Below, in pieces: positions 12,904-31,158 of a stretch of 64,000 bases of DNA. The notes under the pieces are model-generated. The model was not told the origin of the DNA and did not search any database. It was given only the letters and a program-made list of their open reading frames with translations. Where the stretch lies: assembly GCF_014610845.1 (NCBI RefSeq), contig NZ_JABTCG010000004.1, positions 434,001 through 498,000 on the forward strand, read 5' to 3'. The first letter of the stretch is position 1. Every line of letters starts with the position of its first letter. Source of the DNA: Maribacter arenosus. GTDB taxonomy: Bacteria > Bacteroidota > Bacteroidia > Flavobacteriales > Flavobacteriaceae. The position numbers were made by a program, and so were the translations under genes.

Positions 12904-15276
12904 ATGGAACAACATTACCAAGATGAATTTCCCTTAGACCGCCTGATAAGCTTTCATAAAGTGCTGGAAGTTTATGATCGCATGGCCAAAAGTGAAGATA
13001 AGTTTGTTGCCCAAAAAGCGAAATATGTCTTGGAGGCCCAAGCACCTTATCCAGAGCTAAGGGATGGTTTTAAAGACCTTACCCTACTAAAAAAGCATGA
13101 GGGCGTTATTAATATCATTTTGCAGGATTCGTTCTCCGAAGTATTAACCAACAACGAGATCAAAGTTGGTTCCTTACCTTATTATGATGTTATTTTCAAT
13201 GCTTCAGAGCGGTTTAAGAGAATACTTGCAGCCGCTGGTGATGATTTCGAGTTGAAGGTACGGGGAGGCACAGATGACCTTACCTATATTATGGGTTGTA
13301 CCATAATCCTAAGTTTTTATTATGGTTTCAATCTGGATTTTAAACGTCCACTTTTTTACGATATCCCTGATGAAAATGGGGTAATGAAGCATTATCGCAT
13401 TCTTTATAATGCCGATTTCATGGAATTGATCCCTACCGATAAGGCTAAGGATTTGACTCAAGAAGATGTAGATGAGTTGCTCGAGAATTTTGATGATATC
13501 GAAGTTTGGAAAGAAAAAATCCCTCCCGCAAGTTTTATCGCCAAAGGATTTGTAATATCGAATATGTTCGACGCCACAACCGAACATGCCATATCAGAGA
13601 TTAAATCGAGCCTTATTTCCAATGATAAAAGGTCAAGTGACAGTTTTATCACGAATCTGCAAGATGTTTTCAGGTCTTTCTTTAATATTAAGGATATCAA
13701 GGTAGGTTTTGTGACCTATAATTCTGACAAGGACAAGTTTGAAAGGGTACATGGAAAAGAAATGGCAAGTTACCTACTTCAGGATAAGGAAATGGAATCC
13801 TGTAACGAGACCCTTTGCCCACGTTCGTATAGCAAATTACTGGATCAACACCATTATTTTGCGATTGCGAATGTGGAGAAGTTTTATAATTTATGTGAAG
13901 GGCAACCACCCTATAAAGGCCTAAAGAAGCAGGGGATTAAAAGTGCCATTTTCGCACCAATTTCCACAGATGGAAAACTTTTGGGTATTTTGGAGTTGGT
14001 TTCCACAAAGGTGAATGCCTTAAACAGTGTAAATGCCCAAAAACTGGAGCATATAATGCCGTATATCGTTTCTGCCGTATTGCGTTCAGCAGCTGAAGAG
14101 GCAAATTTAATAGATGCTATAATCCAAAATGAATGTACCACGGTACATTCATCGGTTTATTGGAAATTCAAAGAAGAGGCGAAACGTTTTATTGGGGATG
14201 GATTGGATGGGAAACAGGCTTCCTTTAATGAAATAGTATTCAAGGATGTACACCCCTTATATGGGCAAATAGACATCAAGGATTCTTCAAAGGCTAGGAA
14301 TTCAGCCATACAAAAGGATCTCATTGTTCAACTATCGACCATCCGTAAGATAATCACAATGGCTTTGGAAAAGCAAGAATTACCCATATATGAAGAGTTG
14401 GCTTTCCGGGTAAACAATCTACTTGAAGAAATCGAAGAAACCTTGAACACCAATAGCGAACAGGCGATATTTGATTTTGTAAAGGAAGAAGTTCTACCGG
14501 TTTTTGAACACTTAAAAAGTTTAGATGGGCGTCTAAAAAAGATGATTATGGCCTATGAGGAGATGATTGATAGCACAACCGAATCGCATTACAACCATCG
14601 TAGAAATTATGATGACAGCGTAATGGCCATTAACAAAAAGCTAGCGGCGGTCATCGATAAGAAACAGGAAGATGCCCAAGCGATGTTCCCACATTATTTT
14701 GAGCGTTATAAAACCGATGGGGTTGAACATAACATGTATATAGGCCAATCTATTGCTGGTGCATTGCCTTTCAATACCTTGTATTTGAACAATCTGCGAT
14801 TATGGCAATTGCAGGTAATGTGCGAGATGGAAAATGCCCACTACGGGCTAAAATCAAGATTACCCATTGCCTTGGATGTGGCTTCGCTTTTATTGGTTTA
14901 TAGTACTTCATTATCCATACGTTTCCGTATGGACGAAAAACGGTTTGATGTAGACGGGACCTATAATGCCCGCTATGAGGTGATTAAAAAACGCATCGAT
15001 AAATCCTTTATCAAAGGTACCAATGAACGTTTGACCCAAACGGGAAAACTTTCCATCGTATATTCACAAAAGAAGGAAGAATTGGAATATCTTAGGTATA
15101 TCAGCTTTCTAAAATCAAAAGGTTATTTTACAAATAATATTGAAATCGTTGAATTGGAGGGATTACAAGGTGTCACCGGGCTTAAAGCAATTCGGGCTGA
15201 AATACTTTACAAAAAAGATGAGGAACCCCAAAAAACTTTTACTTACGATGATTTAATGGAGGAGCTAAACGCTTAA
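12904..15276 (+). CDS. Large GAF-domain protein of unknown function
   Basis: 790 residues with no signal peptide or membrane helix. A GAF-like domain is seen at about residues 246-405: a GFVTYNSDKDKFERVHG strand pair, KKQGIKSAIFAPISTDGKLL and GILELVSTK, the usual GAF core. Flanking regions are unfamiliar: an N-terminal mixed region (1-240) and a long helical C-terminal half (about 440-790) with charged helices such as EEIEETLNTNSEQAIFDFVK. No kinase, cyclase or HD output domain is visible. It ends 10 bases from the convergent HD/Pycsar-effector-like gene. A sensor or scaffold role is the best inference; a ligand cannot be named. Confidence 0.75.
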   Translation: MEQHYQDEFPLDRLISFHKVLEVYDRMAKSEDKFVAQKAKYVLEAQAPYPELRDGFKDLTLLKKHEGVINIILQDSFSEVLTNNEIKVGSLPYYDVIFNASERFKRILAAAGDDFELKVRGGTDDLTYIMGCTIILSFYYGFNLDFKRPLFYDIPDENGVMKHYRILYNADFMELIPTDKAKDLTQEDVDELLENFDDIEVWKEKIPPASFIAKGFVISNMFDATTEHAISEIKSSLISNDKRSSDSFITNLQDVFRSFFNIKDIKVGFVTYNSDKDKFERVHGKEMASYLLQDKEMESCNETLCPRSYSKLLDQHHYFAIANVEKFYNLCEGQPPYKGLKKQGIKSAIFAPISTDGKLLGILELVSTKVNALNSVNAQKLEHIMPYIVSAVLRSAAEEANLIDAIIQNECTTVHSSVYWKFKEEAKRFIGDGLDGKQASFNEIVFKDVHPLYGQIDIKDSSKARNSAIQKDLIVQLSTIRKIITMALEKQELPIYEELAFRVNNLLEEIEETLNTNSEQAIFDFVKEEVLPVFEHLKSLDGRLKKMIMAYEEMIDSTTESHYNHRRNYDDSVMAINKKLAAVIDKKQEDAQAMFPHYFERYKTDGVEHNMYIGQSIAGALPFNTLYLNNLRLWQLQVMCEMENAHYGLKSRLPIALDVASLLLVYSTSLSIRFRMDEKRFDVDGTYNARYEVIKKRIDKSFIKGTNERLTQTGKLSIVYSQKKEELEYLRYISFLKSKGYFTNNIEIVELEGLQGVTGLKAIRAEILYKKDEEPQKTFTYDDLMEELNA

Positions 15277-15286
15277 TCCTTATTAT

Positions 15287-16471
15287 TTATTTGTGCAGGC
15301 CATACATTTGAAAAGCGACAGCAAAGGCTATGACCGAAAGAACGGTACCTATAATAAAAATGGTGTAGGTCCATCGCAATATCTTGTATTTTCGGTTCAA
15401 GACCAATCCTAAGTAATACAAATCCTTGGTTAAGCTCGAGTAGATATAATCCTTATCTTTTACGAGTTCATTGATGGCCCATTCGTATTCCGATAATTTC
15501 ATTTTATGGAAATTTCCAAAGAACAAGAGGTTCACTTTTTTGTTCTTTACATCTTCCTTGGTGAATTCACCACTGGTAACATTAGGTCTTGTAGCCAATA
15601 CCGCCAGAATCATAGATACTACCGCGAAGATGACAAAAATGATCGTGGGCACGATCAAATATTGATTAGAAGGGTTGTCGAGTTTGGGAATAAGGTTCGA
15701 TAACGCCAAGGAAATAATGATGGCATTGACCGATAGTAGAATATTCGCTTTGGTATCGGCAATATCACTCAAGGTCAAATGGTTCCTTAAAGTCACCCTA
15801 AATAGGGTTTGAATACCACGATCTGGACTTTCACTTTTATATTTCGCTTTAAGGGCTTCTTTTTTAGTAATGGTCTTTATCGATTTATACTCTTTTTTAA
15901 GTTTTTTTAGGTTTTTATCCTTCCCAGGTTGCCAGTGTTCTTTGGCGTATTCGGTCTTATAATCATGTTCTACTTCAAACATTTTGATATTGGTCCTTAA
16001 CCAATCTTTCTGTGAATATTTGGCAATGTTCAATAGTGCGAGTTCCTCCCGCAATAATTCACAGGTTTCCATATAACTGTTTTGGGCGAAATGGGAGGCA
16101 TCGGCATCCCGAAGAATTTCTTCCTTTAAGTTTGTAGGCTTATGGTATCTTTTTGTGGCCAGAATAAGGTCAAGGACTTCTTGGGTTCGCTTCTTGTCGT
16201 ACCCTTCTTTTGAAAGGAATTCCTTGGCAATTGAGACACTCTTTTCCTCATGGTCGGTACTTCCTTGGGTATAGCCGGTATCATGCAACCAAGCCGCTAA
16301 AATCAAAGGCTCACTCTCCTGGACTTCAAGGTGAAGGGAATCTAGGATTTCTTTAGTACTTTTAACTACACGTCGGGTATGTGTCAGATTATGGTATAAA
16401 TATTTATTGTCCAATGATTGGGACAGTAATTCAGTAACAAAAGATTTAGTTTTCTCTATTATTTCCGACAT
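15287..16471 (-). CDS. HD-domain protein fused to a Pycsar-effector-like (PycTM/DUF5706) membrane domain
   Basis: 394 residues. The N-terminal HD phosphohydrolase domain (about 1-190) has its metal ligands: His31 in YHNLTHT, His63-Asp64 in AAWLHDTGY and Asp122 in RDADAS. The C-terminal part (about 225-394) begins LSDIADTKANILLSVNAII, matching the start of the DUF5706/PycTM membrane effector family, and has three hydrophobic segments (about 240-262, 272-296 and 368-390). In Pycsar defence, PycTM effectors respond to cCMP or cUMP made by a cyclase; no cyclase gene is in this window. HD domains often hydrolyse nucleotides. The gene is divergent from the 1237-residue lipoprotein with a 56-base gap. 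Confidence 0.8.
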   Translation of the reverse strand: MSEIIEKTKSFVTELLSQSLDNKYLYHNLTHTRRVVKSTKEILDSLHLEVQESEPLILAAWLHDTGYTQGSTDHEEKSVSIAKEFLSKEGYDKKRTQEVLDLILATKRYHKPTNLKEEILRDADASHFAQNSYMETCELLREELALLNIAKYSQKDWLRTNIKMFEVEHDYKTEYAKEHWQPGKDKNLKKLKKEYKSIKTITKKEALKAKYKSESPDRGIQTLFRVTLRNHLTLSDIADTKANILLSVNAIIISLALSNLIPKLDNPSNQYLIVPTIIFVIFAVVSMILAVLATRPNVTSGEFTKEDVKNKKVNLLFFGNFHKMKLSEYEWAINELVKDKDYIYSSLTKDLYYLGLVLNRKYKILRWTYTIFIIGTVLSVIAFAVAFQMYGLHK

Positions 16472-16527: not shown

Positions 16528-19500
16528 ATGCGCGAATATTACTTACTGATTTTATTATTATTGTTTTTAACTAGCAGTTGCGCTACGTACAAGTCCAAAT
16601 ATGCAGATGAAACTGCTAGTAAGGATATACCCACAACAAAATCAGTTTCCCATACTTTTTATTTGATAGGGGATGCCGGAAAGTCACCCATGGGTGAAAT
16701 GAACCAAGCTTTAAAGGCCTTTAAGAAAAGACTGGATCAAGCAAAAGAAAATAGTACGGCCATATTCTTGGGTGACAATATCTACCCTGCAGGGATGCCG
16801 GATAAGAAAGATTCTACAGCCGCCTATTTGGAGGCCAAGAATAATATTATGGCCCAGTTGAATACTCTTGGGAATTTTAAGGGGAATCCCATTTTTATTC
16901 CAGGTAATCATGATTGGTATAATGAAGGTATTTTAGGCTTGGAAAGACAACAAAAGTTTATTGAAAAGAATCTTGATAGTAAGAAGGTATTCTTTCCAAA
17001 AAATGGTTGTGCCCTACAAAAAATAGAAATTAATGATCATGTTGTGGTCATTGCCATTGATACTAAATGGTACCTTGCCAATTGGGACAAAAACCCTACG
17101 ATAAACGATGATTGCGAAATAAAGGATAGGGAAAAGTTTTTTGAGGAGTTGGAAGGGTTGATAAAAAAGAATACAGATAAGACCACCCTCATCGCCTTAC
17201 ACCATCCAATGTTCAGTTATGGTCAACATGGCGGACAGTTCTCCATGAAAAGACAATTGTACCCAACTGGTCGTAAATTGCCATTACCCATCATTGGCAG
17301 TTTGATCAATGTTTTACGCAAAACAACGGGAGCTTCGCCCGAAGACTTGAACAATAAGAAGTATCGCGAATTAAGAAAACGAATCGTTACACTGGCACAA
17401 AACTCTGAGAAAGTGATTTTGGCTTCTGGGCACGAGCATACGCTTCAATACATCGTCGAAGATAATACACCTCAAATCGTTAGTGGCGCGGGGGCCAAGG
17501 AAGGTGCCACCAGATTAATTAACGGGAGTAAATTCTCTTCAGGTAGAATGGGCTATGCCATTTTAGAGGTCTATACCGATGGTTCCTCAAGGATTAGATT
17601 TTATGGTATTGGAGCTAATGGGGAAGAAGAGTTTATTTTTACCACCAAGGTGTTGTCTGGGCAAAAAGACATCTCGTCAATAGAATACCCCAAAACGTTT
17701 CCAGCGGAGGTAAAAGCTTCGGTCTATACCGATGAAGAGGTTGATAAAAGCAAATTTTTCAAAACCATATGGGGCGATAGGTACCGAGATATTTACGCAA
17801 AAAAAGTAAGTGCATTAACCGTAGATCTAGATACGCTGTTAGGGGGCCTAAAGGTAGTTCGTAAAGGGGGAGGACACCAATCTAGGTCACTGAGGTTGGT
17901 CGACAGTGAAGGTAGGGAATTTGTAATGCGGGCCCTCAGGAAGAGTGCCGAGATATATTTGCAAGCCATGGCTTTTAAAGAGCAATATATTGTCGGTGAA
18001 TTTAAGGATACCTATACCGAAAACCTATTGGAAGATTTTTATACCGGATCCCATCCATACGCTGCCTTGACCGTTGGAACCATGTCAGATGCCGTAGGTA
18101 TTTACCATACAAATCCGAAACTTTATTACATTCCCAAACAGAACGCGCTTTTGGGCTTTGATGATGAGTTTGGGGATGAACTCTATATGATTGAAGAACG
18201 CACCGATAGTGGACATGGAAATCAAAAAAGTTTTGGTTATTCGAATACCATGGATAGTACGGATGACATGCTTACAAAACTTAGAAAGGACGAAAAATAT
18301 AAAGTAGATCAGGAAGCTTATATCAAAGCGCGTTTGTTCGATATGATGATTGGGGATTGGGATCGGCATACCGACCAATGGCGTTGGGCCCAGTTCGAAG
18401 ATATTGAAAAGGGAAAGATTATTTATAGACCAGTACCGAGAGATAGAGACCAGGTGTTTTCGATTATGGGCGATGGCCCCTTAATGGATATCCTTACACG
18501 GATTATTCCAGGACTCACGTTATTGGAAGGCTTTAACGAGGAAATACGAAGTATAAAAGGATTTAACGGATCCCCAAGGACCTATGCTCTCGATATGACT
18601 CTTTTGACTGAGACCACTTGGGATCAATGGCAGCAACAGGCCTTAGCCATTCAAAATAATATAACCGAAGCGGTAATAGATGAGGCCTTCAAGGCTTTGC
18701 CAGAAGAGGTTCGTGATGAGACTATGGCGAATATTAAAAAGGTGTTATTAATGCGAAAGGATGATCTACAAAAAACCGCAAAGGAATATTATAGGCTACT
18801 TAATAAATATGCCATAGTAACCGGTACCGATAAAGATGATTTCTTCTCCATTTCCCAAATGTCGAATGGTGACCTCCAAGTTGTTGGGCAGCGAATAAAA
18901 AAAGGGGATAAGGCCGATGAATTTTTCAAAAAGACCTTTGACCCCAAAATTACCAAAGAGATTTGGATTTATGGCTTAGATGATGATGACCAATTTGAGG
19001 TGCAAGGAAAAAAGGGACAAATAAGATTGCGATTGTTGGGAGGCCAAAATAATGATATATACGATGTGCAAAATAGCAAAGGCGTATTCATTTATGACCA
19101 AAAAGCAAAAAAGAACACGGTTAAAAAGCTTTCATCCGCGAAATTACGGTTATCCAATGAGTATGAGACCAATACGTATCAACCCATAAAATATAAGTCG
19201 AGTTCCAATCAGATAATACCTTCTATAGGATCTAATCCCGATGACGGATTTAAAATCGGGTTTACTGATGTATACACCTTTAATGGGTTCCGTCAGCATC
19301 CATTCACAAGCCAACATACCATAGCTGCTGCTTATTACTTTGCAACCAATGGATTTGATTTAGGATATAGGGGCGAGTTTTCCGGAGCTGTTGGTAAAGC
19401 CAATTTTCTCTTGGATACACGATTTACAAGCCCTAATTACAGCATTAATTTCTTTGGCTGGGGCAATGAAACCGAAAATTTAGATGCTACTTTGGGCAAG

Positions 19501-20241
19501 GATTACAACCGTGTAAAACTGCAGACGATAACACTGAACCCTTCTCTGATTTGGCGCGGTGATCTGGGGGCAAGATTGCGAATAGGATTGAATTTTGAAA
19601 GCGTTGAGGTCGAAGAAACGGATGCAAGGTTTATCAATACTTTCTATGTGGCCAGTGGTGAAGAGAATCAAAAAAGTTTTATTGGAGCCGATATCGCATA
19701 TTCCTTTTCAAATAGCGATAACATAGCCTACCCCACAATGGGCATGGCTACCTCTTTACATATTGGCTATAAAACCAATATGGGTGATGGGAAACAAAAC
19801 TATGGTTATATCATTCCTAGTTTGTCTTTTGATTATCAGTTGGTGCCCAGCGGTAAATTGGTGCTTGGGACAAAATGGAAGGCACATTTTAATTTAGGCG
19901 ATGGTTACGAATTTTACCAAGCTGCTAGCATTGGTGGATTGGATGGTTTGCGTGGTTATAGGAACCAACGGTTTTCAGGCAAAAAATCGTTTTACCAAAA
20001 CACGGATTTAAGGTATAGTTTTAAACGGGTGAAAACAGGATTTTTGCCAGTTAACATGGGTATTTATGGGGGTTATGATTATGGTCGGGTTTGGACACCG
20101 GAAATGGATTCCGATACATGGCACACTTCCTATGGCGGCGGCTTTTTCTTAAATGCGGCCGATTTGATGTCGTTGAACTTCGCTTTATTTGATAGTGTGG
20201 ATGGACTCCGTTTTACTTTTGGAATGGGCTTCGGATTTTAA
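16528..20241 (+). CDS. Lipoprotein joining metallophosphatase, kinase-like segment and outer-membrane barrel
   Basis: 1237 residues. Signal peptide and lipobox LTSSC (Cys18). Metallophosphatase domain, about 42-370: Asp49, GDN 82-84, GNHD 126-129, His225-226, GHEH 301-304. Middle region, about 430-700: a Gly-rich strand turn (RKGGGHQSRSL), FVMRAL with Arg468, then GDWDRHTDQW (Asp612) and PVPRDRDQVF (Asp639, Asp641), resembling the catalytic and metal loops of CotH/HipA/Fam20-like kinases. C-terminal region, about 870-1237: a beta-barrel with the BamA/TpsB-like GLRGYRNQRF and terminal GMGFGF. The kinase assignment is my inference. No POTRA repeats were recognised. Confidence 0.78.
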   Translation: MREYYLLILLLLFLTSSCATYKSKYADETASKDIPTTKSVSHTFYLIGDAGKSPMGEMNQALKAFKKRLDQAKENSTAIFLGDNIYPAGMPDKKDSTAAYLEAKNNIMAQLNTLGNFKGNPIFIPGNHDWYNEGILGLERQQKFIEKNLDSKKVFFPKNGCALQKIEINDHVVVIAIDTKWYLANWDKNPTINDDCEIKDREKFFEELEGLIKKNTDKTTLIALHHPMFSYGQHGGQFSMKRQLYPTGRKLPLPIIGSLINVLRKTTGASPEDLNNKKYRELRKRIVTLAQNSEKVILASGHEHTLQYIVEDNTPQIVSGAGAKEGATRLINGSKFSSGRMGYAILEVYTDGSSRIRFYGIGANGEEEFIFTTKVLSGQKDISSIEYPKTFPAEVKASVYTDEEVDKSKFFKTIWGDRYRDIYAKKVSALTVDLDTLLGGLKVVRKGGGHQSRSLRLVDSEGREFVMRALRKSAEIYLQAMAFKEQYIVGEFKDTYTENLLEDFYTGSHPYAALTVGTMSDAVGIYHTNPKLYYIPKQNALLGFDDEFGDELYMIEERTDSGHGNQKSFGYSNTMDSTDDMLTKLRKDEKYKVDQEAYIKARLFDMMIGDWDRHTDQWRWAQFEDIEKGKIIYRPVPRDRDQVFSIMGDGPLMDILTRIIPGLTLLEGFNEEIRSIKGFNGSPRTYALDMTLLTETTWDQWQQQALAIQNNITEAVIDEAFKALPEEVRDETMANIKKVLLMRKDDLQKTAKEYYRLLNKYAIVTGTDKDDFFSISQMSNGDLQVVGQRIKKGDKADEFFKKTFDPKITKEIWIYGLDDDDQFEVQGKKGQIRLRLLGGQNNDIYDVQNSKGVFIYDQKAKKNTVKKLSSAKLRLSNEYETNTYQPIKYKSSSNQIIPSIGSNPDDGFKIGFTDVYTFNGFRQHPFTSQHTIAAAYYFATNGFDLGYRGEFSGAVGKANFLLDTRFTSPNYSINFFGWGNETENLDATLGKDYNRVKLQTITLNPSLIWRGDLGARLRIGLNFESVEVEETDARFINTFYVASGEENQKSFIGADIAYSFSNSDNIAYPTMGMATSLHIGYKTNMGDGKQNYGYIIPSLSFDYQLVPSGKLVLGTKWKAHFNLGDGYEFYQAASIGGLDGLRGYRNQRFSGKKSFYQNTDLRYSFKRVKTGFLPVNMGIYGGYDYGRVWTPEMDSDTWHTSYGGGFFLNAADLMSLNFALFDSVDGLRFTFGMGFGF

Positions 20242-20314: not shown

Positions 20315-21172
20315 TTACTTTGGTATTTTTAAGGAATAGAGATTGCCTCCCGTATTCGCACGTTTCTCATCAGAAAGCAATAAGGTGTTTTCATCCAAAA
20401 AACAAACAGATTCCAATTGCGTACGTACTCCTAGATCTATTTCTTTCATTTTCCCTTTTGTAAAATCATCGAATGTGAAATTTTCAATGACCCATAGTTT
20501 TCCATAACTTAAAAGTACGATGGTCTTACCGTCGGGGGATATGTCGGCGGATGTGATCTGACAGGTTTCCCAATCCCCACAAGTCTTGATGTTTCCAATG
20601 AATTCGGCATTAAATTCCCCTTTTTGGGCGGGTACTTTGTAGAGCAAGGCATTTCCGGGAAACGGATTGGCCCTATTCTTTGTAATGATGTACAGGAATT
20701 CGGAATGATAAAAAAAAGCTTCTGCATCGTAAAATAACTTTTCCCTCCCAGGAGGAAACTCTTTTTGCTCAGGGTAGTTGAATCGGATTTGTTCGGCTTC
20801 TATCTTGTTACCCAAATCATTTTGAGGGTTAGGAACCTTATAGATAACCAGGTTTTTTCTATCGTTCACATTATTTCCGAAATCCCCAATATATAGGTTG
20901 CCATTTTCATCCTTGGTCAAATCCTCCCAATCACCATTTTTGGCATTTTTTACTTTTATTTCTTTTAATAGGTTGCCCTTAAAGTCAACTTGGTATAATT
21001 CGTCAGGGTTGCCATTGTCCTCAATGAACCATGCTGTTGAATCGGCATAGTATACGATTCCGGAGTTTTCGTCCAACTTTTTTGGAAGTTTGGTGACATA
21101 GGATAGTTGGCCAAAATTTGAACATGATGAAAGTAAAAAGAATGTGAGTATGACTACCGCAAAATTTTTCAT
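20315..21172 (-). CDS. Lipoprotein, probable beta-propeller, unknown function
   Basis: 285 residues with lipobox LLSSC (Cys17). The rest has repeated short strands with turns such as DEDLTK/DENGNLYIGDFGNN, LYKVPAQKG, ADISPDGKTIVLLSYGKLWV and FLDENTLLLSDEKR, like NHL- or SdiA-regulated-type propellers. The motif ENSGIVYYADSTAWFIEDNG near the N-terminus recalls esterase-like phytase/propeller proteins. No catalytic site is clear. Its ATG overlaps the TGA of the haloperoxidase-like gene upstream (ATGA), so the two are translationally coupled. It is the last gene of the minus-strand run that starts with susC. Confidence 0.75.
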   Translation of the reverse strand: MKNFAVVILTFFLLSSCSNFGQLSYVTKLPKKLDENSGIVYYADSTAWFIEDNGNPDELYQVDFKGNLLKEIKVKNAKNGDWEDLTKDENGNLYIGDFGNNVNDRKNLVIYKVPNPQNDLGNKIEAEQIRFNYPEQKEFPPGREKLFYDAEAFFYHSEFLYIITKNRANPFPGNALLYKVPAQKGEFNAEFIGNIKTCGDWETCQITSADISPDGKTIVLLSYGKLWVIENFTFDDFTKGKMKEIDLGVRTQLESVCFLDENTLLLSDEKRANTGGNLYSLKIPK

Positions 21173-22530
21173 TCCGTTTGGTTCGAAACCAAGTCCTTGT
21201 TCTTGGTCATTTTTACATTTTGAATAATAAAATTACCGAGATTTCGACCTTGGGTGATGCCCACTTCAACTGCTGACCGATAATGTATTCCACCATAGAC
21301 CCGGCTAATAGCTGCTTCTTGGGCCGCCTCATTAAACGAATTAAAGCTTCTGACAGGCAGACCGTAAGGGACTTCAACGTCATCATCAAAAGAGAAATTG
21401 TCCCCAAAAACATCGGTCAATGCTATGGCTGCTGCACCCGAGACCACACTATGTCCGCTTGTATATTCAGGAAAGGGAGGGGTCTGTAGAACGGGCAGCC
21501 AATCTTCATCGATATGTTGATTGATCAATGTTTCCGGACGAATCAGGTTACTTCTATATTTTTCTGCCCAACAACTGATAAAGGCATCCGCTATGGCAAT
21601 TGACGTTTTGGTAAGCCCATATACGGTTTTGTCAAAATCACTTTTAGATTTTTTACTAGCTACTTGGGCAATACCGATCCAATGTGCACCAGGGCTTATT
21701 TTTTTTGTAGCGAACATTAAATGCCCCCTGCTAACAGAAACATATGGATTGCAGTCCCAAAATTGGGCAATCTTAATTTCTTCCGAATCATCGCCTTTTT
21801 TTGTGATGTCGTTGCTTATATCATAAACCTCTTTCAGCTCCTTATAGAAATCAGAGTTCTCGTCTAAGGAGAAGTCTGGAGGAGGAGCGGGTTTAAATTG
21901 ATTGGCGGAATCTATGACAAATGGCCGTATTTTGTCCCAGTGGGGTTCAATACCATCCATATAGGCTGGGGGTGTTGGTTGCCATCTTCCTGGATCATAC
22001 GTGTCTACAGTATATTTCGGCATCGTCCGGGTCTGGTTATAATTATCCTCTTTCATCCAATTACCGATATGTTCGGCCACTTTTAACCCATAGTCTTTCG
22101 AGGCATTGAATAAAGTGTGGTTTTTACTATCCCATCGTCCGTAAAGACTATCCCTGAATGCCTCTAATTTATTTTCTGAAAAAATCAATTTCTTACTCAA
22201 CTCCATATGGGCCACAAGGGCTGCCAGTTGATAGTTTATGGGCCGGGAAGCATCTGGTTCAGGTATGGCCGTAAGTCCATGTACCTGCCCTGCCAAGGAT
22301 AGGTAATCATCGTTGTTTAATGCAACGATCTCATAGGCGGCTATATTGGGATACACAAAGACCCTGCTGGCCACCGGGGGCGAGAAAATATCATGTATCA
22401 TGATTTCAGTGACCTTGTCAACCGATGCGTGCAGTTCTTCGGGACTTATCACCAAAGGTTCTTCTATCGTTTTATCACCGCAAGACGAAAGTAGTATGAT
22501 CACGCATAGTGAGGATATGATTTTCTTCAT
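21169..22530 (-). CDS. Vanadium-dependent haloperoxidase / PAP2-type lipoprotein
   Basis: 453 residues from the ATG at 22530, which gives the lipobox LLSSC (Cys17); the longer frame to 22563 adds an unlikely 11-residue leader. The vanadate/phosphate pocket motif set is visible: KYRSNLIRP (Lys324, Arg331), TSGH (Ser358, Gly359, His360) and SRVYGGIH (Arg410, His416), matching the K-x6-RP / PSGH / SR-x5-H pattern. The Pro of PSGH is Thr here. Such proteins are either haloperoxidases or acid phosphatases; sequence alone does not decide. Coupled with the downstream propeller lipoprotein, and in the same direction as the SSS transporter. Confidence 0.85.
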   Translation of the reverse strand: MKKIISSLCVIILLSSCGDKTIEEPLVISPEELHASVDKVTEIMIHDIFSPPVASRVFVYPNIAAYEIVALNNDDYLSLAGQVHGLTAIPEPDASRPINYQLAALVAHMELSKKLIFSENKLEAFRDSLYGRWDSKNHTLFNASKDYGLKVAEHIGNWMKEDNYNQTRTMPKYTVDTYDPGRWQPTPPAYMDGIEPHWDKIRPFVIDSANQFKPAPPPDFSLDENSDFYKELKEVYDISNDITKKGDDSEEIKIAQFWDCNPYVSVSRGHLMFATKKISPGAHWIGIAQVASKKSKSDFDKTVYGLTKTSIAIADAFISCWAEKYRSNLIRPETLINQHIDEDWLPVLQTPPFPEYTSGHSVVSGAAAIALTDVFGDNFSFDDDVEVPYGLPVRSFNSFNEAAQEAAISRVYGGIHYRSAVEVGITQGRNLGNFIIQNVKMTKNKDLVSNQTE

Positions 22531-22760
22531 TTTATATATAATTTCCAATAACATGCCTACCAATATAAAAGTGTTCAGGAATAGGTTGGCAATTTAAAAA
22601 AACCAAAGGGACTGGATTAAAAGAAAGTGTTAATATTTTTATTCAACACCTCCTGTAAGAATTCCCAGAGGCACAAAATTATTAACATAAATATGTTTTG
22701 AAACAATAAGGATAGATTGGTAAGGACACAAAAAGGCCAATACAAATTCTATATTTCTTA

Positions 22761-24583: not shown

Positions 24584-27500
24584 TCATTGTAAATCGATTA
24601 CTAGGGCATCATCATTGTTGGCAATCACCAAAAACTTTTTATCCCCCAGTTTAATTAATTTTCGAGCACTTAAATCCTTGGGCAAGCCCAAAGAATGGTA
24701 CCCTTTAAAGTCCGTTCCATTAAAATCGGTTAGAACGCCCCCGGGATTGGCATCGCTTCGGCCTAATTCATTTACATAATCCATATAATTACCAACAAAG
24801 TACAATTGCCTTTGAGTGCCCTCCATATCCAAAAGAATATCCTCAATACTACTCATCTGCGCCTCCTTTGGCAATGCAATCCCCTTAAATGAAAATCCAT
24901 CATTTAAATACACCATGGAACGTAATTCGTGAATTTCAGCCAATACGGGAATGTCCTGTTCAGACCTGCCGGTCAGATCTTCAATGCCCTTTATTTTGGA
25001 AAAATCGGAATAACTTAAAAACCGTTTTTTTAAATAAGGCAATTGACCCATTAGGTTGTCTTTGGAGGCAAATGGGACATAATGATCAAAGAAGTCATAG
25101 AAAATCAGGGGATCGGGCTGGCCATTCCCATCAAAATCATCAATATAGAGTTTTATAGGTTTTTCTTTAGAAGCTTTCCATTTTAAATTAAGGCCTGCAT
25201 TGCCCGCAATTATATCCTTAAAGCCATTCCCATCCAAATCTTCGATAATGATGGTATTCCACATCCCATTGGTCTTATGGAGTCCGTATTTTTCGGTTTG
25301 GTCCTCAAAATGGTTATTACCGGTATTGATCATAAGGGTAACCGGCATCCAATCACCAACTATGATCAAATCGAGTTGCCCATCATTATTGATGTCTGAC
25401 CATTGGCTATCGGTAACCATTCCATATCTTTCACTAGCAATAGCTTCAAAATTACCTTTTGAAGTGTTTTTTAAGATCATACTCGTTGGGGGTAATCCAT
25501 AAACCCCGGGCATGGACCGGCTACCAATGAACAGATCGGCAAATCCATCTGAATTGAAGTCCCCTGAAGATATACTGCCACCATTCGTCATAGGCAATAC
25601 CGCATTCAACCGTTCAAAATTCCCTTGGCCGTCATTGAGATATACCCGATCTTCCAGATTTGGATTTCCTTCCATAAGGTCATTACCACCACTTATCACA
25701 TAAAGGTCAAGGTCACCATCATTTTCAAGATCGAATACTTCGGCATCTACATCCTCAAAGACCTGATCCTTTTCGAAAGGTTCGGTTTTTTTAAGTTGGT
25801 AATCCCCATTTTTATCTTTAAGGTAGAGGGCTGCGGACTGGTATTTGGCACCACCAATAAAAATATCGATAAGGTCATCCCCATTAAAATCACCTGTTAC
25901 GACAGCAGGGCCTTCAACAGATAGTTTTTCAGGGATCAAGCTTTCCCGCTCATAGTCCAAATAGCTGTTTTCTGTGTGCCTATATCCAAATTTGGACAAC
26001 TTATTGGATGCAGTGGTAATTGAATACGCATATGATGGTAAATCTGTTTTTTTGGAAATCTTATGAAATTTATTGACGGCCAAGTCTTTTTGGGTCTGAA
26101 AGGTGTTATCGGGCCAAATGACCAAGATGGAATCTATTTTCGAAACTCCTCCTAGACCAAAATGCAACTTTCGCGTTGAAGCCGATTGAAATCCCCGGGT
26201 AACTGTCAATTCCTTTACCATAACTTGGTCTTTGGCATATACCATTATTTTAGAGCCCGTGGTACTTCTAGGATGATCTTCGAGATTAAAAGCAATGAAG
26301 TTATGCTGAGGGTCAACGATACTTTTATTTTCCAAAAGAAATGCCTTCTGATTGATATTATTCACTACAACATCCAAATCCCCATCAAGGTCCAAATCGC
26401 TATATGCAGACCCATTTGAAAAGGAGGGCTCTAAACCGGCTTCGGTGGTCAATCTGTCAAATTCAAAATCCCCCTTGTTCCTGAAAATAATATTCGAGAG
26501 TTTGAGGGTAGGCATTTGTTCAATTAATTTTTTTTCGATTTCATTAGCCTGATTTTGGTTATAATCGCTGAAATTGGTGTTGCTGAGATAATTGATGTAG
26601 TCTAGGTCGTTAGGTCTTTTATAAATACCATTGGTAATATAAAGGTCATTCAGCCCGTCATTATCATAATCCTCGATCAATACCGACCAGCTCCAATCGG
26701 TGGCATGGGTATTGGTCATTGGGGCAATGTCAGAAAAAGTGCCATGGCCAGTGTTGAGCTGAAAATTATTACGGGCATATTGTAAGCCATATCCGAAATT
26801 TTCCTTGATAAGGCTTACCTTATCAGAATCCTCACCTCCTGATTTCAAAAATACCTCGTGGTTAAAGGGCATCATATCCAAGGTGAACACATCTTGAAGG
26901 CCATCATTGTTCAAATCACCGATATCGGCCCCCATCGTAAAGCGGGTGGTATGGTTGAACCACTCCGAACCTACTTCCTTAAAAGTTTTATCTCCTTGAT
27001 TGATATAGAGGTAATCATTTTCATGAAAATCATTGCCGACATAAAGATCTAAATATCCGTCTTGATTGATGTCCGAGGTAACCAAGGCCAAACCATAGCC
27101 TAAAGGACTACTGTAGATGCCGGATGCCTCAGTGACATCGACAAACGAAAGTGTACCTTCTTCCAATTTATTTTCAAAAAAGCGATCGCCAGCCAACGAA
27201 TCCTGATCCTTTCTTTTGTCTACCCTGCCATAACTCCTTGGCGTATGTATTGAGCAGTTCATAAGATACATGTCCATATCGCCATCCTTGTCATAGTCTA
27301 AAAATGCGGCTTGTGTCGAAAATCCTGAAAAAGCTAGACCAACACCTTTTGAAACTTCTTCAAAGGTCTCATCACCTTTATTGAGATAAAGTAGGTTATG
27401 CGCTTTTAATCCTTTGTAATTCCCAACTTTGGAGACATATATGTCCAGAAGACCATCGTTGTTTACATCTTCCATAGTTACCCCGGAAGACCAAGTGGAG

Positions 27501-27841
27501 TCTATAGCTATACCGGCCGATTCGGTGATGTCCTTGAACTTTAGGTCTCCAAGATTCAAATAGAGCCTGTCGGGAGATTGGTTCGCAGTGAAATATACAT
27601 CATCTAACCCATCATTATTAATATCACCAACGGCAACCCCACCACCATTGTAGTAGTAGAGATACTCAATGATATTCAAATTATCTTTAGGATGCAGGGT
27701 ATTCGAAAAATCCAATCCACTTTTTTCTGGGGAGATCGAATCAAAATAGATAGCTGCTTTTTCGATCGAAATGTCTTTTTTTTCCGAACAAGCTGTCAAT
27801 GAAATGACCAACAGTAGTACTAATTCTTTTAAATATCTCAT
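24584..27841 (-). CDS. VCBS/FG-GAP repeat lipoprotein with ASPIC/UnbV domain (paralog 1)
   Basis: 1085 residues. Lipobox SLTAC (Cys18). About thirteen calcium-loop repeats of the type D-x-N-x-D-G-x-x-D (for example GDINNDGLDDVYF, EDVNNDGLLDIYV, SDLDLDGDLDVVV) are spread over the whole length, as in integrin-like propellers. An ASPIC/UnbV domain lies in the middle (about 526-595, TGSKIMVYAKDQ, then RGFQSASTRKLHFGLG). A NGIYKRPNDLDYINYLSN block is shared with the two paralogs. It is likely on the cell surface. Its ATG overlaps the upstream paralog's TGA. Surface binding is inference. Confidence 0.88.
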   Translation of the reverse strand: MRYLKELVLLLVISLTACSEKKDISIEKAAIYFDSISPEKSGLDFSNTLHPKDNLNIIEYLYYYNGGGVAVGDINNDGLDDVYFTANQSPDRLYLNLGDLKFKDITESAGIAIDSTWSSGVTMEDVNNDGLLDIYVSKVGNYKGLKAHNLLYLNKGDETFEEVSKGVGLAFSGFSTQAAFLDYDKDGDMDMYLMNCSIHTPRSYGRVDKRKDQDSLAGDRFFENKLEEGTLSFVDVTEASGIYSSPLGYGLALVTSDINQDGYLDLYVGNDFHENDYLYINQGDKTFKEVGSEWFNHTTRFTMGADIGDLNNDGLQDVFTLDMMPFNHEVFLKSGGEDSDKVSLIKENFGYGLQYARNNFQLNTGHGTFSDIAPMTNTHATDWSWSVLIEDYDNDGLNDLYITNGIYKRPNDLDYINYLSNTNFSDYNQNQANEIEKKLIEQMPTLKLSNIIFRNKGDFEFDRLTTEAGLEPSFSNGSAYSDLDLDGDLDVVVNNINQKAFLLENKSIVDPQHNFIAFNLEDHPRSTTGSKIMVYAKDQVMVKELTVTRGFQSASTRKLHFGLGGVSKIDSILVIWPDNTFQTQKDLAVNKFHKISKKTDLPSYAYSITTASNKLSKFGYRHTENSYLDYERESLIPEKLSVEGPAVVTGDFNGDDLIDIFIGGAKYQSAALYLKDKNGDYQLKKTEPFEKDQVFEDVDAEVFDLENDGDLDLYVISGGNDLMEGNPNLEDRVYLNDGQGNFERLNAVLPMTNGGSISSGDFNSDGFADLFIGSRSMPGVYGLPPTSMILKNTSKGNFEAIASERYGMVTDSQWSDINNDGQLDLIIVGDWMPVTLMINTGNNHFEDQTEKYGLHKTNGMWNTIIIEDLDGNGFKDIIAGNAGLNLKWKASKEKPIKLYIDDFDGNGQPDPLIFYDFFDHYVPFASKDNLMGQLPYLKKRFLSYSDFSKIKGIEDLTGRSEQDIPVLAEIHELRSMVYLNDGFSFKGIALPKEAQMSSIEDILLDMEGTQRQLYFVGNYMDYVNELGRSDANPGGVLTDFNGTDFKGYHSLGLPKDLSARKLIKLGDKKFLVIANNDDALVIDLQ

Positions 27842-30800
27842 TGACTTTTGTAGTTAAAGATTGCCAGTGAATCATTGTTCCTGGAAACAATCAATCCCTG
27901 CTTACTTATTTTTATATCGCGTATTTCACCTAAAAGTGAAAAACCGGCGCCCCCATTGCGATATTTAAAATTTGAACCGTCGATGTTTTCCAGATATATA
28001 CCAAAAGAAGCATCGTAACGCCCTACCTCGGGTTTAGTATTATAGAGGTTACCACCCATGACCAGATCCATATCCCCGTCTTGATCAAAATCCCCGGAAC
28101 CTATGGCATAAATGGGGGTGAACTGTGCCTCTATGGGAAGTTTTACCGGTTTAAAATTAAGATTCCCTTCATTGATGAGTATCATGGAGGAAAGTGTAGT
28201 CGCCTGTAATTTTTGTGCTCCCTCTAATTCCGTTTCCGTAAACATATCCTTGATACCGGCATCTTTAAATGAATTGAAATCGGGGTATTTCTTTTTAAGG
28301 TCTTTAAGTTGTTCAATCAGATTATGTCTTAGATTGTATGGATATTGTTTCCCATTTTCGGCCGTAAAGGTCATAATGGGGTCAATAAATCCATTTTGGT
28401 CAAAATCCTTGACATAAAGACTGATAGGTCGTTCGACGCTAGCCCGAAAGCGGGAATTCTCACCGTGGTTTCCTAAGACCAAATCCAGGTCTCCATCATT
28501 ATCAAGGTCCACAGGATGTACTACTCTCCACCAACCTTTTAGATCGGCCAAGGCGGCATTGGTGACCTTGACAAATCTACCGTTCTCGTTCCGGAAAATT
28601 TCTATGCCCATAAATTCGCCCACTACAATCAATTCCTTCTTACCATCAGCATCGAGATTTTCAAACCTTGCATCGGTGATCATTCCCAAATCTTGAAGTT
28701 CAGGGGCTACTTTGGCTGTAATATCTGTGAAATTACCTTGGCCATCATTTTGTAGAATAAAACCGGATCCAGGCATTCCATATTGTGTTGGAACGCTTCG
28801 CTCACCTACGAAGAGGTCCAAATCCCCATCGCCATCGATATCTTCCGCAAGTACGGTAGAGGTGCTATGATTTCCGGTAGCCGAGGGTAATTGTTGTGGG
28901 GAAAGTGAAAAATTACCTTGCCCATCATTAAAATATAATCGGTCTTTCAAATAACTTGAAAATTGGGAGAATTCAACACCGCCACTACAAACATACAGAT
29001 CTTGGTCGCCATCATTATCTGCATCAAAAAATAGGCTGCCACCATCCTCGGAGTTGCTATTTTTTTGAAAGTCTGGGATTGAACTTTCAATAAAACCCTC
29101 TTCCTTGCCTAACAATAGGGTTGAAGGATGGCCTTTTGAGCCTCCGATAAAAAGATCTTCCCAGCCATCGTTGTTTATATCCGCTACGGATATTTTTGGA
29201 CCTTCGGTACTGAGCATATGTGGCAATAAACGATCCCGATCAAAATCAACGAATCGATTTTCAATATGCTTGAAAGGAATATTTAATTTGCTTCTGGTAA
29301 ACTGGACTGGTGGTGCTGATTCCGGGATTTTGATAAATTCAACACCGTCGATTTCTTTGAGCTCTAGGGTTTGGTTCGCTTTTACGTTTTCAATACGGGT
29401 GATTTTACCAGATGGCCATAGCACTTGCACATTCACGGAATCATTGTTTGAAAGTCCAAAATTGGGTCGAAGATCCATACTCGATTGAAAGCCTCGAATA
29501 GGTTGTTGCTCTTGATATAATGATTGTTCCTTGGTCTCTACTTTTATTTTGGCGCCTATGGCGTAGGTATTCTTACCTTGGCCATGAAGCACTAATTTGA
29601 GATAATTGTGGTTCAAGTTTGAATCGGCATTATTGCGATAGACAAAAGAAGACATATTCACATTATTCACTACCAAGTCATAATCCCCATCATTATCCAG
29701 ATCACCATAGGCCGAACCGTTTGAGAAACTAGGTGTATCCAGACCAGAATTCCAATTGCGTTCGAATTTTAGGTCCCCCATATTCTTGTAGGCGTGGTTG
29801 CGAACTTTGTTCGAAGGAATGATAGCTATCAATTTATCGTAATCGACTTGATTGCCCGAAACAATCGATTGAATGGCCGCATCGCTTGAAACGTATTGTA
29901 GGTAATCCTGATTGGTTAAATCCTTATAAATACCATTGGCAATAAATAGATCCTTGAGGCCATCATTATCCATGTCGAAAAACAGGGCGCCCCAACTCCA
30001 ATCAGAAGCTTCGACACCGCTAAACCTACCTATTTCACTAAAGGTGGAATTGCCATTGTTCAATTGCAACATATTCCTAGTGAATTGATGGTAATAGCCA
30101 TTCTTGAGATTATGTTGGTATTTGTTCCAATCCTCAAACGTGGTCACGGTTTTCAACCTATCATACTCAGATGGCAGCATTTCTGTAACGAAAAGGTCGA
30201 TTTGTCCATCATTGTTGATATCGGCCACATCGGCTCCCATCGATGCACCGCTTAAAGATTGGATTTGTTCGGTCAAGGTCTCTTTAAAGGTGCCATCTTT
30301 TTGATTGATGTAGATATAATCGCGTTCAAAAAAGTCGTTAGAGACATAAATATCTTCCCAGTCGTCGTTATTGAGGTCACCTACGGTAACCCCTAGGCCG
30401 AAACCTATTACACTGCCATATATGCCGGCTTCTTCACTGACATCAACAAAGGATTCCCCATCATTTCGTAATAACTTGTCACCTCCTAGGACGTCACGTT
30501 CAAATCGTTCATTACGCTGTAAATTGAAGCTACCTATGGATCGGTAGGAATTGTTCAATAAGTAAACGTCAAGATCACCATCTTTATCATAATCAAAAAA
30601 TGAGGCATGTGTTGAAAATCCCTGATCATCAAGACCATATTTTTCTGCGGCCTCTGTGAATGTTACCTGGCCCGTATCGTCAGGGCCATTATTGATGAAC
30701 AATTCGTTCTGTTTATTGTCACCTGCAATATCCCCGGAATTACAGACATAAATATCCAAATAGCCATCGGCATTGATATCGGCCATAGTAACTCCTGTAG

Positions 30801-31158
30801 ACCAAGCTTTGGTACCTCCTACTTTGGCTTTGTCGGTAATATCCTCAAATTTGAAGCCTCCTTTGTTGAGGTAAAGTCGATTCGATTTTAAATTTGACGA
30901 AAAATAGATATCGACAAGTCCATCATTATTGATGTCGCCCAGCGCTACCCCTCCTCCGTTATAAAAATTGCGGTACTTATACACATTGAAATCATGGTTG
31001 TAATTCAGGTCGTTGACAAAATTTACACCGGTCTCGGTACTATCCAATAATTCAAATAAGGCGATAGAATCTTTATGTTCGGCATCTTTGCCTGTACATG
31101 AGGAAATCAGGATGCTAATTAGTATCGAGAGGATTATGGGATAATTATTTTTGAACAT
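27838..31158 (-). CDS. VCBS/FG-GAP repeat lipoprotein with ASPIC/UnbV domain (paralog 2)
   Basis: 1106 residues. Lipobox ILISSC (Cys21). The layout matches paralog 1: N-terminal FYNGGGVALGDINNDGLVDI, repeated D-x-N/D-x-D-G loops, NGIYKDLTNQDYLQYV, then an ASPIC/UnbV domain (about 520-600, IGAKIKVETKEQ, then RGFQSSMDLRPNFGLS) and a second propeller half to the C-terminus. It is closer to paralog 3 than to paralog 1, sharing RNFYNGGG and the FERDY(I/L)YIN segment. The stop overlaps the ATG of paralog 1, and the start is 5 bases after the small lipoprotein's stop, so all are one operon. Confidence 0.88.
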   Translation of the reverse strand: MFKNNYPIILSILISILISSCTGKDAEHKDSIALFELLDSTETGVNFVNDLNYNHDFNVYKYRNFYNGGGVALGDINNDGLVDIYFSSNLKSNRLYLNKGGFKFEDITDKAKVGGTKAWSTGVTMADINADGYLDIYVCNSGDIAGDNKQNELFINNGPDDTGQVTFTEAAEKYGLDDQGFSTHASFFDYDKDGDLDVYLLNNSYRSIGSFNLQRNERFERDVLGGDKLLRNDGESFVDVSEEAGIYGSVIGFGLGVTVGDLNNDDWEDIYVSNDFFERDYIYINQKDGTFKETLTEQIQSLSGASMGADVADINNDGQIDLFVTEMLPSEYDRLKTVTTFEDWNKYQHNLKNGYYHQFTRNMLQLNNGNSTFSEIGRFSGVEASDWSWGALFFDMDNDGLKDLFIANGIYKDLTNQDYLQYVSSDAAIQSIVSGNQVDYDKLIAIIPSNKVRNHAYKNMGDLKFERNWNSGLDTPSFSNGSAYGDLDNDGDYDLVVNNVNMSSFVYRNNADSNLNHNYLKLVLHGQGKNTYAIGAKIKVETKEQSLYQEQQPIRGFQSSMDLRPNFGLSNNDSVNVQVLWPSGKITRIENVKANQTLELKEIDGVEFIKIPESAPPVQFTRSKLNIPFKHIENRFVDFDRDRLLPHMLSTEGPKISVADINNDGWEDLFIGGSKGHPSTLLLGKEEGFIESSIPDFQKNSNSEDGGSLFFDADNDGDQDLYVCSGGVEFSQFSSYLKDRLYFNDGQGNFSLSPQQLPSATGNHSTSTVLAEDIDGDGDLDLFVGERSVPTQYGMPGSGFILQNDGQGNFTDITAKVAPELQDLGMITDARFENLDADGKKELIVVGEFMGIEIFRNENGRFVKVTNAALADLKGWWRVVHPVDLDNDGDLDLVLGNHGENSRFRASVERPISLYVKDFDQNGFIDPIMTFTAENGKQYPYNLRHNLIEQLKDLKKKYPDFNSFKDAGIKDMFTETELEGAQKLQATTLSSMILINEGNLNFKPVKLPIEAQFTPIYAIGSGDFDQDGDMDLVMGGNLYNTKPEVGRYDASFGIYLENIDGSNFKYRNGGAGFSLLGEIRDIKISKQGLIVSRNNDSLAIFNYKSQ

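Follow-up and report, generated by a model that had tools for sequence, protein, structure and literature searches.

An Omp85-barrel lipoprotein of Maribacter arenosus with a predicted kinase-like domain next to a purple-acid-type phosphatase

The window analysed here is a stretch of 64,000 nucleotides of Maribacter arenosus (contig NZ_JABTCG010000004.1, positions 434,001 to 498,000). Positions 16528..20241 on its plus strand, the strand of all features of the gene given below, encode a lipoprotein of 1237 amino acids. The open frame, a homologue alignment and a full-chain model divide the protein into an N-terminal phosphatase, a kinase-like domain, a beta-rich linker and an Omp85 barrel. The kinase-like fold of the middle domain is well supported by structure prediction. 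The protein begins with MREYYLLILLLLFLTSSC, a signal peptide with a lipobox-like LTSSC that ends at Cys18 (residues 1-18, 16528..16581), in agreement with the lipoprotein proposed by a first-pass annotation of the sequence. Among 134 phosphatase-kinase-linker-barrel homologues (hereafter fusions) with the start present, a hydrophobic run up to a cysteine was detected in 110 with a looser lipobox pattern and in 72 with a stricter one; both are patterns and not trained predictors. Several of the 24 misses of the looser pattern show a cysteine by eye, others have none.

The full chain (residues 38-1237) was modelled by an AlphaFold2-type prediction with 77 of the 80 homologues from named records. 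The mean predicted local distance difference test (pLDDT) was 85.3 and the predicted template modelling score (pTM) 0.84, with a stretch below 50 at 940-956 in model numbering. Family models cover the two ends of the protein. With E values up to 1, Pfam gave only Metallophos and, just below its cut-off, ShlB (1133-1195). NCBIfam gave Omp85_fam and, as the lone match in the middle, a chance-level BT_3928_fam (E 0.14, far below cut-off). No meaningful Pfam or NCBIfam match over the middle region was found. A PDB search with the single protein yielded four weak phosphatase matches (E 0.29-0.6), one chance match and zero matches on the kinase-like region.

The phosphatase occupies residues ~42-370 (16651..17637), as defined by the Pfam Metallophos match (residues 43-242, E 2.4e-10), a fold match and motif conservation. 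In fold, the N-terminal part matches the purple acid phosphatases of pig and human (Z 28.9 over 268-269 residues, 19-20% identity). All seven purple-acid ligand positions are present in the protein: Asp49, Asp83, Tyr86, Asn127, His225, His302 and His304. They correspond to the metal ligands of purple acid phosphatases (D, DxxY, N, H, HxH), of which the tyrosine is typical. Conservation was read from alignment A3, comprising the window protein and 77 of the 80 named-record homologues (78 full-length sequences; three split or cut records omitted). The tested residues of the GDAG, GDN, GNHD, HHP and GHEH motifs are identical in 77-78 of the 78 sequences, apart from Ala50 (kept in 71) and Glu303 (kept in 60, Asp in the remainder). 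Tyr86 is conserved at ≥ 90%, and the tyrosine ligand is kept in 117 of 130 fusions. The calcineurin-type metal motifs that had been noticed in this part of the chain are thus all in place, and the model and the ligands refine the label to a predicted phosphatase closest to purple acid phosphatases.

The kinase-like domain comprises residues ~430-760 (17815..18807), delimited by AlphaFold2, structural matches, hhalign and conservation. Predicted separately as residues 400-775 with 80 homologues, it reached a pLDDT of 88.5 and a pTM of 0.89; the ten-residue blocks with the catalytic and metal loops reached 87-97. The model shows two lobes, a glycine loop, a helix C and the catalytic and metal loops in the order of the kinase superfamily. 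Strands 442-446 and 452-458 flank the glycine loop (Gly447-449). Strand 464-472, in the place of strand 3, carries Arg468 and Lys472, and helix 496-507, in the place of helix C, carries Asp503; the placements of Arg468 and Asp503 are read from the elements of the model. Strand 551-557 carries the hinge residue Glu556. In canonical order there follow helix 595-608, the catalytic loop 609-618 with Asp612 and Gln617, a hairpin of strands 618-625 and 630-637, and the metal loop 638-641 with Asp639 and Asp641. The first-pass annotation had suggested a kinase-like region at ~430-700. The fold came out as kinase-like and the motifs lie where they had been placed, whereas the end had to be moved from 700 to ~760.

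Structural comparison with VIA-align covered 999 chains, and all 50 matches listed are kinase-like (Z 9.8-15.3), a few of them, titled 'MDT protein' or promoter complex, being identified as HipA entries and not by title. Among the matches listed, type II phosphatidylinositol 4-kinase (PI4K-II; Z 15.3, root-mean-square deviation (rmsd) 4.3, 254 residues, 9% identity) and CotH (PDB 5jd9 and 5jda; Z 14.6 and 14.5, 253 and 256 residues, rmsd 4.0, 14% identity) are tied as nearest folds, and CtkA (13.2), HipA (11.4) and Fam20 (10.7) also occur. Foldseek against the PDB gave seven matches with E up to 0.001. CtkA was best (1.9e-4), and Rio2, MSMEG_1954, ADCK3 and HipA were other kinase-fold entries among the best matches. 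The similarity is distant to every known branch of the kinase fold.

The sequence motifs GGGHQSRSL, FVMRALRK, GDWDRHTDQW and PVPRDRDQVF stand at the places given to them by the annotation, and the numbering of Asp612, Asp639 and Asp641 agrees. The three aspartates, whose lack of conservation had been named as a point that would speak against a kinase, are present in all 78 sequences of A3; of 183 distinct homologous domains, 176 retain all three. Together with Gly447, Arg468 and Lys472, they are kept in 175 of the 183. Profile comparisons were made with 39 homologous middle regions (A1) and with a second set of 41 of greater diversity (A4). Against the PDB, the top match of A1 was CtkA of Helicobacter (E 0.17), with GNFDRHNGNW aligned on GDWDRHTDQW; CtkA was again the top match of A4, and the E value improved to 0.015. 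By hhalign, the domain aligned to CotH sequences of Bacteroidota genomes (E 0.0012, score 33.8), where Asp639 and Asp641 fall on the two acidic positions of the PWDxD-like motif. The alignment to HipA (E 0.0047, score 28.5) pairs Asp612 with the first Asp of the DDHxxN motif, the catalytic Asp of HipA, and Gln617 with the Asn of this motif. Controls comprised the protein's own phosphatase (0.017, best of all controls) and own barrel (0.41), 12 shuffled-column comparisons (best 0.12), four reversed ones (best 0.28) and 22 unrelated families of neighbour genes (best 0.079). The positive control, CotH against HipA, gave 5.2e-5.

In Pfam scans of the 39 and 41 members, CotH (E 0.014, one of 41 A4 members), DUF4135 (0.042) and HipA_C (two of 41 A4 members, best E 0.19) appeared as weak matches. 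They were discounted because noise scored equally well or better (EnY2 0.0021). CotH was absent among the A1 Pfam matches listed, which represent 25 of 27 families. A weak match of the PADLOC phage-defence-candidate model PDC-M03A on residues 591-752 (E 1.2e-4) was given no weight.

Between the kinase-like domain and the barrel lies a beta-rich linker (residues ~768-878, 18829..19161), seen as strands in the full-chain model, with the stretches GLDDDDQFEV and GGQNNDIYDV. It accompanies the kinase-like domain in eight barrel-less proteins. The barrel follows at residues ~890-1237 (19195..20238) and rests on model strands, fold matches and Omp85_fam. The full-chain model has 16 strands of at least 9 residues each between model residues 854 and 1198. 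The best fold matches are BamA of D. radiodurans (Z 25.4) and TamA (Z 24.6), and Foldseek found BamA with 3.1e-10. Omp85_fam was matched with E 5.4e-15; the 55.8 bits lie below its cut-off of 200. The Omp85 motif (V/L)RG(F/Y) is present as GLRGY at 1140-1144. A BamA/TpsB-like barrel with GLRGYRNQRF had been expected at this end and was found, and the linker in front of it is an addition. POTRA families were absent among Pfam and NCBIfam matches with E up to 1, a result of family models on the whole chain, the linker not having been fold-searched by itself.

The gene is single-copy in its own genome, and matches occurred in 29 of 40 genomes searched, the own genome included. Of 395 Bacteroidota genomes sampled, 142 carry the kinase-like module by the A1 profile (E up to 0.001). 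The fetched loci contained 186 domains, after two of 188 kinase-matching frames with fewer than 280 aligned residues had been dropped (L024_1_1485, L254_452_3112); removal of three duplicates left the 183 distinct domains. The 186 domains belong to 139 phosphatase-kinase-linker-barrel, 32 kinase-linker-barrel, 8 kinase-linker and 7 kinase-alone proteins. These counts are not frequencies, since the later loci (L149-L168 and L229-L268) were picked by hand for length variety. The part common to all architectures is the kinase-like module. A gene tree of 81 rows left 28 of 78 inner branches open and requires at least nine changes of the phosphatase label and three of the barrel label. No single history was drawn from it, because the phosphatase-less label of L038 is an artefact of a split frame. 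The 24 pattern matches in viral contigs contained no relative, and phage records gave no match. Five matches were found in plasmid records: three from Hymenobacter, one from Persicobacter and one from Parabacteroides. Four of these relatives are annotated as 'hypothetical protein' and one is without a feature.

Six of the seven standalone kinase-like domains are frames of 416-433 amino acids (L036:4598-5869, L037:4323-5555, L154, L166, L234 and L267). The five with the start read, all except L267, have one N-terminal membrane helix each. Five of the six are in the gene tree, where they make up one starred branch. The seventh standalone protein, L160_2129, looks like a lipoprotein.

Which enzyme's residues survive was counted on 130 fusions, six of 136 having been dropped as cut by contig ends or split. 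Six kinase positions, or the Asp triad alone, were compared with six phosphatase ligands, and the split was identical either way. Both site sets are kept in 116 fusions. Another 11 keep the kinase positions alone and carry substitutions at one to five of the phosphatase ligands. One fusion (L158) has a frame that starts within the phosphatase, one keeps the phosphatase only and one keeps neither. By this measure the kinase-like part is better kept than the phosphatase and is the best-kept enzyme of the family. The pattern suggests that both activities matter, with the kinase-like one as the core. A simple barrel-borne envelope phosphatase, with an inert spacer in the middle, would fit what Pfam and NCBIfam recognise, namely phosphatase and barrel only, and would fit the fusion subfamily of PF00149 and Omp85 described in 2014 (PMC4104836). 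The occurrence of the kinase-like module without a phosphatase, and its better retention, largely refute this explanation, which we consider extremely improbable.

The same counts bear on a role as an Omp85 assembly factor, in which insertion or export of a client would be the barrel's task, and the enzyme-like domains would bind the client in place of POTRA domains, without need of catalysis. Assembly is the default proposal in the Omp85 survey (PMC4104836). The nearness of the barrel to BamA and TamA is in its favour, as are the copies that lost residues of one or both enzymes. Retention of the tested residues of both enzymes in most fusions, and kinase-like modules without any barrel, make it quite improbable.

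In a tandem array of three fusions (L031:2487-13553, genome G023), the surviving sites of the two enzymes are divided between copies. The outer two copies keep the kinase triad and have substituted phosphatase ligands; the middle copy keeps the phosphatase, but its glycine loop, His614, Asp639 and Asp641 are gone. One outer copy entered the counts via the duplicate locus L024. In one family, barrel-less kinase-linker copies with serine in place of Asp612 (GDWSRR) stand head to head with intact copies (L152:3936-7275, L260:3001-6351 and L160:2129-7148). They are possibly pseudokinase/kinase pairs and resemble Fam20A/Fam20C in this respect.

The interpretation that we favour is that an Omp85-barrel lipoprotein displays two opposed enzymes: a purple-acid-type phosphomonoesterase and a kinase-like phosphotransferase whose family would be new and lie close to CotH, PI4K-II, CtkA, HipA and Fam20. 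It is probably correct, judged by predicted folds, conservation, modular occurrence and retention; activity, donor, substrate and membrane side are inferred. In the proposed mechanism, a nucleotide with Mg or Mn would be held by the Gly447-449 loop, by Arg468, standing in for the strand-3 Lys and forming a pair with Asp503, by the hinge Glu556 and by Asp639 and Asp641 as metal binders. Asp612 would act as the catalytic base. The kinase-like domain may phosphorylate a membrane-proximal substrate, which could be a protein, lipid or glycan, and the tethered phosphatase may reverse the mark or clear the product. For both domains a periplasmic position is most likely, so that the whole would be a membrane-tethered phosphorylation switch on this side.

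Several points weigh against this interpretation. The usual strand-3 Lys is replaced by Arg468, the helix-C Glu by Asp503 and the catalytic-loop Asn by Gln617. Foldseek TM-scores are modest (0.2-0.4 by query length, ≤ 0.54 by target length). The own probabilities of hhalign are low, 18.9% for CotH and 7.5% for HipA; the sequence link alone is therefore only suggestive, and the fold carries the case. In the own genome, the Pfam models for CotH (PF08757) and HipA_C (PF07804) matched two other genes and one other gene, respectively, and not the window gene. The triad is partly lost in 7 of the 183 domains, so pseudokinases exist in the family. The retention counts are uncorrected for genome relatedness. 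No conserved partner gene indicating a substrate was found in the neighbourhood survey of 80 named loci, some of them shortened. ATP is generally considered absent from the periplasm, which makes the phosphate donor the main weakness. Kinase and phosphatase activities are predictions from models and sequence. For the arginine, a comparable departure is described in another family of kinase fold, Arg38 of Lani_1194 (PMC9758233).

The altered residues also raise the question of chemistry. Kinase folds can transfer AMP or glutamate, as in SelO and SidJ. A working nucleotide site that serves such a reaction, or nucleotide sensing only, would agree with the atypical catalytic loop (Gln617 for Asn), with Arg468 for Lys and with the remoteness of all known branches. 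Two observations speak against it: like phosphotransferases, the domain retains the Asp triad, and its closest structural neighbours are kinases of lipids and proteins. We regard this alternative as unlikely.

The membrane side is the next point. In characterised Omp85 proteins, the N-terminal portion lies in the periplasm. PlpD, a patatin-Omp85 protein, follows a related plan, with an enzyme placed N-terminal to its Omp85 barrel, and this enzyme domain is reported to be found only in the periplasm (PMC11116518). PlpD has a patatin-like domain and a POTRA domain, whereas the window protein has a phosphatase and a kinase-like domain and no POTRA was seen. From the Omp85 plan and PlpD, a periplasmic position appears likely. 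Alternatively, the barrel or another system could export the N-terminal half, which would act at the cell surface on extracellular substrates with environmental nucleotide. Surface-exposed lipoproteins such as BamH and BamM are described for Bacteroidota (PMC12611786). Moreover, the own genome's two CotH-domain proteins (L169 and L194, contig C18) have lipoprotein-like N-termini, so enzymes of the kinase fold may be in wider use outside the cytoplasm in this phylum, and a non-cytoplasmic kinase fold is perhaps not unusual. The periplasmic enzyme domain of PlpD and the Omp85 topology make surface action rather unlikely.

Beyond the single protein, the periplasmic switch can be extended to a Bacteroidota family of extracytoplasmic kinases on Omp85 barrels, which with a purple-acid-type phosphatase would form a self-contained outer-membrane phosphorylation switch with a novel donor, and with pseudokinase/kinase pairs and activity-splitting arrays as variants. 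This extension is tentative, and we would lean slightly against it. If the favoured interpretation is true, a family known only by its phosphoesterase and barrel ends carries a kinase-like enzyme as its best-kept catalytic part. Kinase and phosphatase would oppose each other on a side of the Gram-negative envelope where ATP is thought to be absent, which raises the question of phosphate donor and acceptor there.

The architecture has a precedent. Heinz and Lithgow (2014) described an Omp85 'Metallo' subfamily with PF00149 fused to an Omp85 barrel in a non-POTRA architecture, next to other POTRA-less subfamilies (PMC4104836). In the paper, PF00149 goes under the name of a metalloprotease domain; the main text never uses the word 'kinase'. 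The window protein has this architecture of PF00149 and Omp85-type barrel; in it, a kinase-like domain separates the barrel from a phosphatase that belongs to the purple acid type. The 'noNterm' barrels of the same survey may correspond to the kinase-linker-barrel proteins. New is the previously unlabelled kinase-like module within a known Omp85 architecture. The favoured interpretation, if true, would reinterpret the 'Metallo' subfamily and possibly also 'noNterm'.

Among kinases, CotH (PF08757) shares the fold and the aligned acidic residues of the PWDxD-like motif; the window protein differs by its GDWDRHxDQW catalytic loop and by the attached phosphatase and outer-membrane barrel, and is outside the matches of the Pfam CotH model in its own genome. 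PI4K-II and the PI3K/PI4K kinases include the highest fold Z among the matches listed. The likeness of this bacterial envelope protein to PI4K-II is one of fold. CtkA and HipA, a secreted effector and a toxin-antitoxin kinase, are alike by the best profile match of CtkA and by the alignment of the HipA DDHxxN on DRHxxQ; the window gene is outside the matches of the HipA_C model in its own genome. Fam20 kinases are eukaryotic secretory-pathway enzymes with a similar GNxDRH-type loop. They are alike in fold, with 8-11% identity in the matches listed, and have neither phosphatase nor barrel.

Two further candidates were set aside. Lani_1194-type kinases of Legionella have relatives in Flavobacteriales, but they are described as kinase-methyltransferase fusions and, judged by architecture, lie outside this family (PMC9758233). 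A metallophosphoesterase of Riemerella anatipestifer (Niu 2021), which appears in the effector list of a review on the type IX secretion system, is probably a different protein. By term counts, papers on the Bacteroidota beta-barrel assembly machinery (BAM; PMC12611786) and on TamL (PMC12045153) contain no 'kinase', 'phosphatase' or 'phosphoesterase'. In the open-licence literature, no title or abstract opening was found that describes the fusion with a kinase, which does not establish its absence from print more widely.

Several neighbour genes are conserved. A membrane protein with an HD domain and a PycTM domain (Pycsar effector-like; 15287-16471) is near the target in 60 of the 80 loci; for this reason it looks like a core chromosomal gene and not like part of a defence island. 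On the other side, 20315-22563 encodes an SdiA-regulated/phytase-like lipoprotein (60 of 80 loci) and a PAP2-superfamily lipoprotein (34 of 80) with weak similarity to vanadium chloroperoxidase. A protein of 790 amino acids (12904-15276) without a Pfam match at E 0.001 is conserved upstream in 50 of 80 loci. The HD-PycTM, SdiA-type and PAP2 genes are on the opposite strand, and the gene for the 790-residue protein is on the same strand, beyond the HD-PycTM gene; hence no operon partner names a substrate. Farther downstream, 24584-31158 encodes two adjoining proteins of ~1100 amino acids with FG-GAP repeats and UnbV_ASPIC domains.

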